From positions 1 to 35,007 of the forward strand of contig PFBJ01000018.1 in assembly GCA_002778575.1 (NCBI GenBank): a DNA stretch of 35,007 nt. The letters run 5' to 3'. This stretch comes from Candidatus Kaiserbacteria bacterium CG10_big_fil_rev_8_21_14_0_10_49_17 (lineage in GTDB: Bacteria; Patescibacteriota; Minisyncoccia; Phycocordibacterales; JABMNX01). The notes under the pieces are model-generated. The model did no database searches. It was given only the letters and a program-made list of their open reading frames with translations, and had not been told where the DNA came from. The translations under genes and the position numbers were made by a program. This document shows positions 10,859 to 18,943 of this stretch, piece by piece (the stretch's first letter is position 1; every line of letters starts with the position of its first letter).

Positions 10859-10903
10859 CGGTACAACTACCGCAGAAGAAATAGATGAACAAAGGAGACA
10901 GTG

Positions 10904-11546
10904 ATGTCAAAAGGCAAGTTTGTCGTTATTGACGGTGGTGATGGTGCAGGAAAAACCACATTAATAAAACAACTCGAGGCAGAGTTCAAGCAAAGAAACA
11001 TTCTCTTTCACGATACGAGGGAGCCTGGCGGTTCTCGATACGCTGAAGAAATCCGTTCACTTATTCTAAACAAAGCGGAGGCCAGAAATGCGGACGCGGA
11101 AACAATGTTCGCTCTTTTTTGGGCAGCGAGACGAGACCATGTCGTTAACACTATCTCTCGTCTTTGTGAGAAGGGAATCCTTGTCGTTTCAGATCGTTTT
11201 GATTCTTCCACATACGCGTATCAAATTTTCGGTCAAGAAGAAAAACAGCTTGAGGATTTGTTCTGGGTTGTGCGTAACCACTACCTTCGTGGGTGTGAGC
11301 CAGATGTATATATCTGGATTGATGTGGATCCGCACGTTGGCATGAGAAGGCGTGCTTTTCAGAGAGATGAAAAGAAACAACCATTTTGATGAGCGACAGC
11401 TTGCTTTCCATCTGCGAGTTCAGGAAGGATTCCGCACATTTATGAGTAAATGTAGCAGCGTGCACTTCGACGGGAACAAAGCACCCGAAGAGGTATACAA
11501 AGAGGTTTTGGATTATCTCCTCAGTTTCACCACTAAGCGACAATAG
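10904..11546 (+). pseudogene. tmk: Thymidylate kinase, split between two frames near 11370-11377
   Basis: Frame of 10901-11389: GKFVVIDGGDGAGKTTLIKQLE...TREPGGSRYAEEIR...SDRFDSSTYAYQ...DVDPHVGMRRRAFQRDEK; continuation in another frame (11352-11546): RNNHFDERQLAFHLRVQEGFRTF. Confidence 0.8.
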
Positions 11547-11555
11547 ACATTTCCC

Positions 11556-12714: not shown

Positions 12715-14352
12715 ATGATACAAGAGACGCTCAGAAAACTGATAGCGGATGCGGCCGGTGTTTCGGCTGATGAAGTGCCGCTGGAGCATCCGGTTGACAT
12801 AGCACACGGGGATTATGCAAGCCCCATAGCTCTTTCTCTTGCGCAAAAAGAAAAAGAGGCACCGCGTGCCGTGGCTGAGCGGATTGCCGCTCGAATTGAG
12901 AAGAATGAAAACATTGAAGCAGTTACCGTGGCTGGTGCGGGATATATCAACGTTACTCTCTCGAAAACGTTTTTACATACTGAGATACAGCACGCACTTC
13001 AAGAACAGGATTCTTACGGTAAAGGAAAAAGTGGGGAAGGCAGGAAAGTGATGGTCGAGTATACCGATCCAAATCCGTTTAAAGAATTCCATATTGGACA
13101 CTTAATGAGCAATACTATTGGAGAAAGTATTGCGCGCATAATTCAGTGGAGCGGCGCAGAGGTAAAACGGGCCAATTACCAAGGAGATGTCGGTCTGCAT
13201 GTCGCGCAAGCGATTTGGGGTTTAAAGCACATGGGCGTTGAGCCAACGGATACAAAAATACTTGGCACGGCGTACGCGCTCGGGGCGCAAAGATATAAAG
13301 AAGACAGCACCGCAAAAAATGAAATTGATGCAATAAACAGAGCTGTGTATTCCGGAGAGGATGAGACTGTGCAAGAACTGTACAGGAAAGGGAGAGCGGT
13401 ATCGCTTGCGCACTTTGAAGAGATATACAAAATACTCGGAACCAAATTCGATTTTTACTTTTTTGAATCCGAGAGTACGCCAATCGGTAAAGAAATGGTA
13501 AAAAGCCACCTCGATGTATTTGAGGAAAGCGACGGAGCAGTAATTTACCGGGGAGAGCAGGACGGTCTTCATACGCGCGTATTTATCACTGCACGCGGCA
13601 TACCGACATATGAGACTAAAGACCTCGGGCTGACACAGCTAAAAGAAAAAAAGTGGGATTTTGATACTTCAATTACCATTACCGCATCCGAACAAGCAGA
13701 GTATTTCAAAGTCATGCGTGCGGCTCTACGGAGAGTTGCTCCCGAAAGCGCTGAGAAGATTGAGCATATTACCCACGGCATGATGCGACTGCCAAGCGGA
13801 AAGATGTCATCGCGAACCGGCGATGTTATTGCCGCAGAAGCGTTTCTTGAAGAAGTGAAAGATACAGTGCTCACGCGAATGGGGGATAAAGACGAGACGA
13901 TCGCGGAGCAAATCGCGCTCTCTGCGGTGAAATACATTATTCTTCGTCAAGCCACAGGGAAGGACATAGTGTACGACAAAGAGCAGGCAACACGTTTCGA
14001 GGGGGACACCGGGCCATACTTGCAATACACATACGCACGCATACAGGCACTCTTAAGTAATGCGGGGGGTGCGACAGTTGAGGTTATGGATACAGCTGAG
14101 AAAACAGATATTGAACGTCTCCTCTATCGTTTTGCTGGAGTGGCAAAACGCGCAGCAAAGGAGCGCGAGCCACACCATCTCGCGACATATCTTGCAGAAG
14201 TTGCAAGCGCTTTTAACTCCTGGTACGGGAAGGGGAAAATTCTTGATGGTACGCTTGGGCAAGCGCACAAACTGGCGCTCGCAAGCGCCACTGCAGTGGT
14301 GCTTAAGAATGGTCTTTGGCTTTTAGGTATTGAAGCACCGGAGCGGATGTAG
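12715..14352 (+). CDS. argS: Arginyl-tRNA synthetase
   Basis: VEYTDPNPFKEFHIGHLMSNTIGESIARI (HIGH region), GMMRLPSGKMSSRTGDVI, C-terminal anticodon-binding region. Confidence 0.96.
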   Translation: MIQETLRKLIADAAGVSADEVPLEHPVDIAHGDYASPIALSLAQKEKEAPRAVAERIAARIEKNENIEAVTVAGAGYINVTLSKTFLHTEIQHALQEQDSYGKGKSGEGRKVMVEYTDPNPFKEFHIGHLMSNTIGESIARIIQWSGAEVKRANYQGDVGLHVAQAIWGLKHMGVEPTDTKILGTAYALGAQRYKEDSTAKNEIDAINRAVYSGEDETVQELYRKGRAVSLAHFEEIYKILGTKFDFYFFESESTPIGKEMVKSHLDVFEESDGAVIYRGEQDGLHTRVFITARGIPTYETKDLGLTQLKEKKWDFDTSITITASEQAEYFKVMRAALRRVAPESAEKIEHITHGMMRLPSGKMSSRTGDVIAAEAFLEEVKDTVLTRMGDKDETIAEQIALSAVKYIILRQATGKDIVYDKEQATRFEGDTGPYLQYTYARIQALLSNAGGATVEVMDTAEKTDIERLLYRFAGVAKRAAKEREPHHLATYLAEVASAFNSWYGKGKILDGTLGQAHKLALASATAVVLKNGLWLLGIEAPERM

Positions 14353-14701: not shown

Positions 14702-14746
14702 GCGAGAGAAATGCCGAGCTCTAAGCTCGAGCATTTCCGAGCCGAG
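14702..14746. repeat. 45-bp hairpin repeat, copy 1
   Basis: gcgagagaaatgccgagctctaagctcgagcatttccgagccgag; exact second copy 81 bp downstream. Confidence 0.97.
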
Positions 14747-14782
14747 GAGCTTATATAGCAAAGCAATATAAGCGAGCGTTAT

Positions 14783-14827
14783 GCGAGAGAAATGCCGAGC
14801 TCTAAGCTCGAGCATTTCCGAGCCGAG
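14783..14827. repeat. 45-bp hairpin repeat, copy 2
   Basis: Identical to 14702-14746. Confidence 0.97.
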
Positions 14828-14854
14828 TTATATGAGGAGATATATGCCGAAACA

Positions 14855-17800
14855 ATGGGGACTCAATCAGAAAAAGACAACATAGAGAAAGGGAAAAGTA
14901 CAATCTCCCTTCGCGAGGAGGAAATACTCTCGTTTTGGCGAGAGAATGACATATTTAAAAAGACTGAAAGAAAGGACGCGCCGAAAGGCGAGTTTGTATT
15001 TTACGATGGCCCGCCGTTTGCAACCGGTATTCCGCATCACGGACACATGCTCGCAAGCACTATTAAGGATGCTATTCCTCGATATCAAACAATGCGTGGC
15101 CATAGGGTATCTCGTCGGTGGGGGTGGGACTGCCATGGGCTTCCGCTTGAGACACACGTTGAAGACGAGCTTGGTTTTAAAACAAAAGCCGAGATCGAAC
15201 AGTACGGAGTGGGGAAGTTTAATAAAGCGGCACGAGGCGCAGTGCTTCGGTATGCAGATGTATGGAAGGAAGTCATCCCGCGTATTGGGCGGTGGGTGGA
15301 TATGGAGAATGACTATAAAACCATGGACGCTTCCTATACCGAGAGCGTGTGGTGGGTCTTCCGCTCTCTCTACCAGAAAGGCCTTATTTACAAAGGCTAT
15401 CAGGTGCTCCACCTCTCGCCACTGCTTGGCACTGAGCTCTCAAACTTTGAGGTTTCCCAAAACTACCAAGATATTGACGACATAGCAGTATTTGTAAAAT
15501 TGCCTCTCTTAGACGAACGAGGAACATCACTGCTCATTTGGACAACGACTGCATGGACACTGCCGGGCAATATGGCAGCGGCGGTTAATAAAGATTTCAC
15601 GTATGCCAAGGTGCGCATTGGTGATGAAATTGTAATTCTCGCAAAAGAGCGTGTCGTTGATGTTGTTGGGGAGAGCGCGGAAATAATCGAAGAAGTGCAG
15701 GGGAGCGAACTTGTGGGGCGCGCGTACCAGCCGCCATTTGATTATTTCAAAAATGCGGATATTGAAGGCAAAGAAAAAGCGTGGCAGGTGTACCACGCGC
15801 CGTACGTAACCCTTGAAGACGGAACCGGTATCGTGCACCTCGCACCCGCTTACGGCGCTGAAGATATGGCACTTGCTCAAGAGAATGGTATTCCGGTAGT
15901 GCACCATGTTGCAAAGGACGGCACTTTTATGGATTTTGTCCGTGACTTTCGCGGAATGCAGGCAAAACCAAAAGGGGATCACCAGCGCACCGACTCGCTC
16001 ATAGCCGAAAACCTCAAAGCGCGCGGGCTGCTTTACAAAAAAGAAATAATCAATCACTCCTATCCGCACTGCTGGCGAACCGACGCACCACTGCTTAACT
16101 ACGCGATGGACTCGTGGTTTGTGAAAGTCACTGACTTTAAAGACGAGCTTGTTTCAGAGAATGAGAAAGTGCATTGGGTTCCAAGCGAGGTAGGAGAGAA
16201 ACGTTTTGGCAACTGGCTTAAAAATGCCCGCGACTGGTCAATCAGTCGGCGTCGGTACTGGGGTGCGCCACTTCCGGTATGGGAGAAAAAGAACGGTGAA
16301 GCAGTGGTGCTCGGCAGTGTTGAAGACATAAAGAAGTATGTGAAGAAAAGTGGCAACACGTACTTCCTTATGCGTCACGGAGAAGCCGTCAGCAATGCGA
16401 CCAGTATTGTCAGTTCAGGTCTTACGGATAAAAATCCGCTTACTGAAAAAGGTAAGGAGCAGGTGCGTGGTGCGGTAGAAAACATCAAATCATTTAAACC
16501 GGATTGCATTATTACCTCTCCACTTGAAAGAGCGATGGAAACAGCGCGCATAGTTACAGAAGGACTTGCCCTTTCTGATGATGCGCTTATTACGGACATG
16601 CGTCTCCGGGAAATTGACTTCGGTGTGATGAATGGGAAAAGTAGGGAGGAATACTGGGCGCTTTTTTCTTCTCCTGAAGAGCGCTTTGAAAAAGCTCCAG
16701 AGAAAGGCGAGACAGTCCCGGACGTTAAGCGACGCGTCGGAGAGTTTCTATATGACATAGAGAAGAAATACTCAAACAAGAAAATACTTATCGTAGCGCA
16801 CGAGGACATTTTATGGATGCTCTCTGCTGTAGCTCTGGGAGCGCGAAATAATACGTGTCTTGAAATCAAAAGTTCGTCTGATGATGTATTTAGAAATGCT
16901 GAGATTCGCACGCTTGATTTCACTGTACTTCCGCACAACGAAGAGTATGAGCTTGACCTGCACCGACCGTACATTGATGAAGTTGAACTTGTTGACAACG
17001 ACGGAGACGTGCTGAAACGGATTCCAGACGTCTTTGACTGTTGGTTTGAGTCAGGTTCAATGCCGTACGGGCAAAATCACTATCCATTTAACAAGAACAG
17101 CCAATTTGAGCCGAAGAGCGGATTCTTTAAGCGCTCCCGCGGTTATCCGGCCGACTTTATCGCAGAGGGAATGGATCAGACACGCGGCTGGTTCTATTCG
17201 CTCATCGTCCTCGGGACAGCACTCTTCGGGAAATCACCGTATAAAAATGTCATTGTAAACGGTTTGGTTTTGGCTGCGGACGGACGAAAGATGAGCAAGC
17301 GGCTGAAGAATTACCCCGAGCTTATGGATGTGGTCAACCAGTACGGTGCCGATGCGCTCCGGTACTACCTGTTGTCTTCTCCAATTATGCGCGGCGAGGA
17401 CCTTAACTTTTCCGAGCAAGGGGTCGATGAAGTGCAGAAAAAAATAATTACGCGGCTTGATAATGTGCGCAGTTTTTACGCACTCTACGGAAGGAGCACA
17501 GGGGAAGCAAAAAATACTTCCGAGAATATCCTTGACCGGTGGATACTTTCACGACTCGGGCAACTCATCAAAGAGACAACTGCCGGCATGGAAGCCTACG
17601 AGCTTGATCGGGCAAGCCGCCCCCTCCTTGAATTTATTGATGATCTCTCTACGTGGTATGTACGTCGTTCTCGAGATCGCATGAAGAGCGGCTCCTCCGA
17701 GGGTGCGGCCGCTCTTGCGACGCTTAAGTACACACTACTGACGCTTTCGAAAGTCATGGCGCCCGCCACACCGTTCTATGCCGAGTATCTCTACCGTGAA

Positions 17801-18349
17801 TTGCGAGAAAAGAATGATCCTGAGAGCGTGCACCTCTCCTCATGGCCTGTCGCAGAGAAGGTGGACGAGGAGCTTATCGCGGATATGAAACAAGCGCGAA
17901 GCATTGTTTCTTCTGCTCTTGAGGCTCGAGTGAGCGCCGGAATAAAAGTTCGACAGCCGCTTGCATCTCTGACAATCAAAACGACCGCGCTTTCTGACTC
18001 ACTGAAAGAAGTGATAGCAGATGAGGTAAATGTAAAGGAAGTAATCGAGGACTCAACTCTGGCTGCTGATATACGGCTTGATACCACGCTCTCAGAAGAA
18101 TTGAGAGCAGAAGGACTTGTGCGTGATTTTATCCGAACGGTACAACAGGCGCGGAAAAACGGAGGGTTTGCACCAGGAGAGAGGGCGGTACTTACAGCAT
18201 TTGTTCCAGAATCACTTCAAAAACATATCAATAACGCGAAAGAAGAAATTCTCGAAAGTGCGTGTCTCTCTAAAATGTCTTTTGACCGGGTGGATGGCGA
18301 GCCTGTAACGGTGGGGGACAGCGAGGTTGTGGTGGTACTCTCTCGATAA
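14855..18349 (+). CDS. ileS: Isoleucyl-tRNA synthetase with inserted histidine-phosphatase domain (about 16355-16940)
   Basis: [46 protein letters not shown]; CP1 editing region; [14 protein letters not shown]; insert [10 protein letters not shown]...[10 protein letters not shown]...LREIDFG...ILIVAHED. Track ORF begins at 14792 but that start lies inside repeat copy 2. Confidence 0.95.
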   Translation: [1164 protein letters not shown]

Positions 18350-18943
18350 ATGGCATATCGGCAATACGAATCCAAAGGACTGGTTCTCTCCGGAAGTGAT
18401 GTCGGAGAGCAGGAGCGGCTCGTCGAGCTCTTTACGTGTGAGCTCGGGCTTATCCGTGCCATAGCCCGAGGCGTCCGCAGAGAAAATTCAAAGCTGCGCT
18501 ACGGGTTGACCGACTTTACGGTCGGGACTTTTTCATTTGTACGAGGCAAAGAACTGTGGCGCCTCACTGGAGCTGTCGCTGAGAGTAATGCGTACAGAGA
18601 ATTGGAGCGCATGCCTGAGCGGCAGGACGCGCTTGCACGGATCGTCTCTCTTGTTCGTCGCCTCGTTCCAGGAGAAGAAACAAATCAAGAGCTTTTCGAC
18701 ATACTCCTTGGCGCAATTGCTTACCTATGCTCTGAGGCTTACACCGGAGAGCGAGATGACCGTTTCGAAATTGTGACTGTGCTCCGCATTCTCCATACGC
18801 TTGGTTATGTGGCCAAGGAGGCGCCATATGGAACACTGCTTGATTCGGCAGAACTTTCTGAATCTGTGGTCGCGGACGTGACGAATATACGCAAAGAGAT
18901 GGTTGAGGCGATTAACACATCGCTTCGCGAAAGCCAGCTGTAG
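18350..18943 (+). CDS. recO: DNA repair protein RecO
   Basis: YESKGLVLSGSDVGEQERLVELFTCELGLIRAIARGVRRENSKLRYGLTDFTVGTFSFVRGKELWRLTGA. Confidence 0.88.
   Translation: MAYRQYESKGLVLSGSDVGEQERLVELFTCELGLIRAIARGVRRENSKLRYGLTDFTVGTFSFVRGKELWRLTGAVAESNAYRELERMPERQDALARIVSLVRRLVPGEETNQELFDILLGAIAYLCSEAYTGERDDRFEIVTVLRILHTLGYVAKEAPYGTLLDSAELSESVVADVTNIRKEMVEAINTSLRESQL

Follow-up and report, generated by a model that had tools for sequence, protein, structure and literature searches.

Within the 35,007-nt window, the whole stretch of contig PFBJ01000018.1 that we analyzed, an ileS gene stands between argS and recO (Table 1). Its product scores above the cut-off of the NCBIfam ileS equivalog model TIGR00392 (894.9 bits against 621.4), and Pfam resolves it into a tRNA-synt_1 stretch at residues 45–516, a second such stretch after an insert, and an Anticodon_1 domain at residues 915–1057. 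Between the two tRNA-synt_1 stretches, in one open frame, lies a His_Phos_1 domain. The preliminary description of this locus had proposed exactly such an in-frame insertion rather than two adjacent genes, with both synthetase halves, the CP1 editing motifs and KMSKR intact, and the domain search and translation bear it out. The HxGH, KMSKS and CP1 editing motifs are all present, the threonine-rich editing motif WTTTAWTLPGN being placed at residues about 250–260 by translation and alignment. The half downstream of the insert contains the CP2 return strand (DLHRPYID), the KMSKR motif, the anticodon-binding domain and DUF5915.

Table 1 Features of the ileS locus, in window positions
Feature	Position	Strand	Remarks
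argS, upstream neighbor	12715..14352	+	PF00750, PF05746, PF03485
45-nt repeat, two perfect copies in the ileS leader	14702-14746, 14783-14827 (span 14702..14827)	+	repeat search
ileS, coding for isoleucyl-tRNA synthetase with an inserted histidine phosphatase	14792..18349	+	1185 aa; uninterrupted open frame
IleRS catalytic half 1 and CP1 editing domain	14924..16339	+	residues 45-516, PF00133 stretch
HHGH motif of IleRS	15035-15046	+	residues 82-85
Full insert with linkers	about 16343-16954	+	encloses His_Phos_1 core
His_Phos_1 domain core	16364..16867	+	residues 525-692; PF00300 E 5e-34
Arg528-His529, predicted phosphate-binding Arg and nucleophilic His	16373..16378	+	conserved in 149/149 IleRS inserts
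Arg580, predicted phosphate-binding	16529..16531	+	conserved in 149/149 IleRS inserts
Glu607, predicted proton donor	16610..16612	+	148/149 IleRS inserts, Asp in one
His670, predicted second catalytic His	16799..16801	+	149/149 IleRS inserts
IleRS half 2	16955..18334	+	PF00133 second stretch, PF08264, PF19302
KMSKR motif of IleRS	17288-17302	+	residues 833-837
recO, downstream neighbor	18350..18943	+	PF11967

An AF2 model of the full-length protein has a mean pLDDT of 91.9 and a pTM of 0.86; it is confident through the phosphatase insert, with values >90 across most of that domain. Structural comparison places it closest to type-2 IleRS enzymes, 8c8v among them, and the gene encodes a type-2 IleRS. 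Residues 18–31 are predicted at low confidence, and the listed start codon (14792) falls within the downstream member of a pair of 45-nt direct repeats; translation may therefore begin later, for example at Met22 (14855), which leaves the finding unaffected. The repeat has only these two copies within the window, each with a short palindrome-like stem. Rfam gave no credible match to a T-box or other leader RNA 5′ of ileS, and likewise none of note for the repeat.

The insert occupies the CP2 hairpin of IleRS, between “GSVEDIKKYVKKSG” and DLHRPYID. Approximately 200 residues fill this hairpin in the window IleRS, whereas in insertless relatives the stretch from the GSxxEL helix to DLHRPYID measures about 8–20 residues, in keeping with the short linker that had been claimed for other IleRS enzymes. 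Many of these relatives carry hairpin cysteine pairs, zinc-ribbon-like in appearance, which are gone in the window protein. The boundaries first given for the insert, 16355–16940 (residues 522–716), prove right to within a few residues. At 118.1 bits against a gathering cut-off of 21.7, the PF00300 match identifies a branch-1 histidine phosphatase, the sole PF00300 domain that a profile search recovers from the window's 643-kb genome. Foldseek aligns the AF2 insert with PhoE, PspA and Rv2419c at a probability of 1.00, as expected of a phosphoglycerate-mutase-like fold, and the insert alone also matches a riboflavin-pathway phosphatase.

The window insert retains the full RH...R...E...H catalytic set, as originally noted, and all five residues are complete in 148 of 149 IleRS inserts, in six of six free copies adjacent to ileS and in both of two tandem second domains. 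Among close-relative pairs with measurable dS, dN/dS of the insert ranges from 0.03 to 0.25. Conserved catalytic residues and low dN/dS are marks of a working enzyme, and an active phosphomonoesterase is strongly implied by them. In two Nomurabacteria IleRS proteins (L112, L113), the insert is ~30 residues shorter in mid-domain with all catalytic residues retained.

Against the curated subfamily models, the insert reaches no cut-off. The best score, to dPGM_arch, is 95 bits against a required 225, far below threshold; scores for the CobC alpha-ribazole phosphatase (84.2 against 162.9 bits), the PspA phosphoserine phosphatase (63.6 against 350) and the SixA phosphohistidine phosphatase (29.9 against 74.5) also fall short. 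No substrate can therefore be named from the family.

The distribution of the architecture was determined with a profile of the insert plus its flanks in samples of 147 genomes of the order, 144 of the class, and the phylum. Carriers are tiny, host-associated bacteria with minimal genomes. An inserted IleRS is found in 136 of the 147 order genomes, a count that includes a few proteins cut at contig ends; the 11 genomes without it are G026, G033, G042, G058, G059, G063, G077, G092, G103, G109 (at a contig edge) and G142. The class sample yields 97 of 144, and in the phylum sample every one of the 9 genomes belonging to the class has the insert, as do 12 of the 137 from outside it. In all, more than 200 sampled genomes carry the insert. 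The best 80 matches listed of a wider search are nearly all labeled Patescibacteria or unclassified bacteria, and the names among them include Kaiser-, Taylor-, Wolfe-, Adler-, Nomura-, Lloyd-, Yonath-, Vogel- and Campbellbacteria and other Paceibacteria/Parcubacteria. Two contigs labeled Spirochaetia/Spirochaetales (L048, L085) encode a typical Patescibacteria-like IleRS with the insert; these labels are probably wrong or the bins mixed.

The phosphatase also occurs as a free protein beside ileS. Six class genomes with an insertless IleRS encode a ~190-aa phosphatase in the gene immediately 5′ of ileS, in the same orientation, and these proteins match the insert profile at E values of 1e-55 to 1e-46. 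The two genes overlap through ATGA in L175, L176 and L179 and by 7 nt in L177, and are separated by 14 nt in L178 and 4 nt in L180. In some relatives, the free gene sits between argS and ileS; thus, the L175 order of argS, phosphatase, ileS and recO is that of the window with the phosphatase outside IleRS. In the tree, the free ileS-adjacent copies nest in a clade of inserts (98/92 support), where an inserted copy is the sister of one of them (96/92). In L206 and L210, which have a free copy, the host linker resembles the standard insertless one. Since free copies nest among inserts, yet these linkers look like those of ordinary insertless enzymes, both pop-out and repeated insertion are possible.

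ValRS proteins from scattered lineages (L027, L190–L195 and further genomes) bear a histidine phosphatase at the equivalent hairpin, and L027 scores above the valS equivalog cut-off. The ValRS insert at L191:1526-4504 (genome G329) has Ser in place of the second catalytic His and, judged by this substitution, is probably a dead copy; no other clear case was encountered. Doubling is found in both synthetases. In about ten genomes of one family, f214, IleRS has two tandem phosphatases, the second of which groups with the ValRS inserts at moderate support (82/79); the ValRS of G331 (L190) likewise contains two in tandem. The 1451-aa IleRS of that same genome (L189:1638-5990), which belongs to the phylum sample, carries two inserted domains elsewhere: a GNAT acetyltransferase follows the CP2 region, and a HisPhos domain follows the KMSKS region.

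Modules have been exchanged in place. A second lineage of inserts, the B type, groups as a single clade (98/61, with 100/97 at an inner node) but has scattered hosts, and holding those hosts together is rejected by the AU test at p = 6e-62, a value to be taken as indicative because the B group was named after the insert tree had been seen. A pair of IleRS proteins, L049 and L056, shows an in-place module swap directly: the hosts are 88–91% identical and the inserts 42%, and by block the synthetase is 85–100% identical in most blocks and the insert 25–55%, with sharp edges at the hairpin. A second block of low identity (14–50%) lies in the CP1 editing region of this pair, at alignment columns 280–320. 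Occupants of the CP2 slot change, yet it stays filled, which is what one would expect of a site where a phosphatase is of use. Loss is documented within one genus, in which the whole domain has been cleanly deleted in G033 (ELKKYIPDSAS-LPQNENGEPDLHKPYID) and kept in its sister G111 (ELKKYTKKSGN-[domain]-FPHNENYELDLHRPYID). A profile search of the G033 genome finds no PF00300 match anywhere. Because this clean loss came without another PF00300 protein, the domain is dispensable for charging, though few genomes of the order leave the slot empty.

In our best explanation, a type-2 IleRS bears in cis, on its CP2 hairpin, a branch-1 histidine phosphatase resembling PhoE and PspA; the data show this architecture directly, along with the predicted fold, conservation, selection, distribution, operon form and module swaps. 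By family precedent, His529 would attack a phosphomonoester and become phosphorylated, after which the phosphoenzyme would be hydrolyzed; Glu607 would serve as proton donor, and Arg528, Arg580 and His670 would hold the phosphate. The genetics points to a phosphatase that would act jointly with IleRS, and with ValRS in certain lineages, as an accessory outside the aminoacylation core. Its most likely role would be the removal of a phosphorylated small molecule that inhibits the branched-chain synthetases or is made near them. Chemistry, coupling and substrate are steps that we infer, and functional coupling is likely; on balance, we favor an active phosphatase in cis, functionally coupled to IleRS/ValRS, over an enzyme that is simply parked there. 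Counted against coupling are the 11 of 147 order genomes without the domain, the clean loss in G033 and the lost second His in L191, and insertion into a tolerant hairpin together with the operon position could have come about without it. More tentatively, IleRS and ValRS of these bacteria may possess a second, phosphatase-based accessory activity. It would remove a phosphorylated compound that inhibits, mimics or arises as a by-product of branched-chain aminoacylation, or would adjust charging by sensing that compound. Kept in most of the order and diversified by in-place swaps, this activity would be supplied either within the synthetase or by a separate partner whose translation is coupled to it.

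A possible but less probable explanation is that an active phosphatase with a housekeeping task in metabolism was inserted into a tolerant surface hairpin, co-expressed with the synthetase and uncoupled from it. The IleRS of G033, which works without the domain, fits this account, as do the free HisPhos genes found in many of the sampled genomes and the other domains inserted elsewhere in relatives' IleRS, such as the GNAT domain of L189 and that of the NCBIfam model ileS_w_GNAT. However, the domain occurs in ValRS as well as IleRS, has been replaced in place by different HisPhos lineages, has doubled in tandem and also lies as a free gene at ileS, more than random parking would be expected to produce, and few metabolic uses are left for the sole PF00300 protein of a 643-kb genome without enolase or iPGM.

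An unlikely third reading is a protein phosphatase switch, in which the domain would dephosphorylate IleRS or a partner, for example by reversing HipA-type phosphorylation of the KMSKS loop. HipA-type kinases phosphorylate other synthetases, and the location in cis would suit self-dephosphorylation. Some branch-1 members, SixA among them, do act on phosphoproteins (PMC7948535), but the SixA model score is far below its cut-off. A HipA_C domain is found in none of the 147 order genomes, which argues against antagonism of HipA in particular.

We consider a moonlighting glycolytic phosphoglycerate mutase very improbable. In its favor, the best NCBIfam model is dPGM_arch, albeit far below threshold, and the window genome lacks both a PF01676 iPGM and any other PF00300 gene. 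Yet enolase was found neither in the window's genome nor in its five family members or ten other genomes of the order, and is missing from most others tested, which leaves no lower glycolysis to serve, and the nearest solved structures are mostly phosphatases. The glycolytic role is rejected here on the missing enolase, the low dPGM score and the lack of iPGM in each of the 20 genomes tested. Finally, a degenerate, dead spacer present by chance in one assembly, the outcome that the preliminary description said would overturn it, is refuted: nothing favors a spacer or assembly artefact beyond the apparent oddity of the protein, whereas the catalytic residues are intact across hundreds of independent assemblies and the insert is under purifying selection.

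Synthetases rank among the most conserved enzymes. The type-2, eukaryote-like IleRS structures of Priestia megaterium (IleRS2, 8c8v) and yeast (8wnd) share its whole scaffold (TM-score 0.83 to the target) and its catalytic and editing motifs, but no solved IleRS has a phosphatase in CP2, and the insert profile aligns to solved IleRS chains through its flank alone. PhoE (1h2e), PspA phosphoserine phosphatase (4ij5), Rv2419c (4qih) and the riboflavin-pathway HFP (9mmh) share the fold and catalytic residues of the insert but are free-standing and 24–28% identical to it, so that their specificity is not transferable. The family described by ileS_w_GNAT (NF040702) is also an IleRS with an extra enzymatic domain, in that case an acetyltransferase; the window IleRS scores 281 bits against its cut-off of 1999. 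The CP1 editing domain of IleRS, ValRS and LeuRS is likewise a catalytic domain within a class Ia core, one coupled to quality control, but it differs from the phosphatase in site, fold and chemistry and is general to these synthetases, whereas the insert is lineage-restricted. To our knowledge, editing is the function of the catalytic insertions found in class Ia enzymes.

Synthetases into which a catalytic domain has been inserted are a known kind of enzyme, and what is new here, as far as we found, is the type of activity, apparently undescribed in a synthetase. The preliminary description knew of no published account, and none was found in literature on IleRS and other synthetases with a histidine phosphatase or phosphoglycerate mutase, on Patescibacteria/CPR/Parcubacteria, or in domain-insertion surveys, a search in which subscription papers and preprints were thinly covered, so that absence is no proof. 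An apparently active phosphatase shares one polypeptide with IleRS across an order of minimal-genome bacteria, recurs in ValRS and has a counterpart in an upstream gene that overlaps ileS. This suggests that phosphate-ester chemistry is tied to the charging of branched-chain tRNAs, a connection undescribed in the literature searched.

Several minor observations accompany these results. A defense gene was considered and rejected, with no PADLOC family match at E <= 0.001. Other HisPhos fusions occur, with pyruvate kinase (HisPhos-pyruvate kinase, L198) and with 2-hydroxyacid dehydrogenase (2-hydroxyacid dehydrogenase-HisPhos, L199 and L200). Elsewhere in the window, the tmk (thymidylate kinase) frame at 10901–11550 stops at 11389 after 162 aa; because the rest of the protein seems to run on in another frame, the gene appears frameshifted or misassembled. 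A LAGLIDADG-like ORF at 1872–2631 (PF14528, 25 bits) ends exactly where tRNA-Leu(GAG) starts and may be a homing endonuclease associated with that gene.
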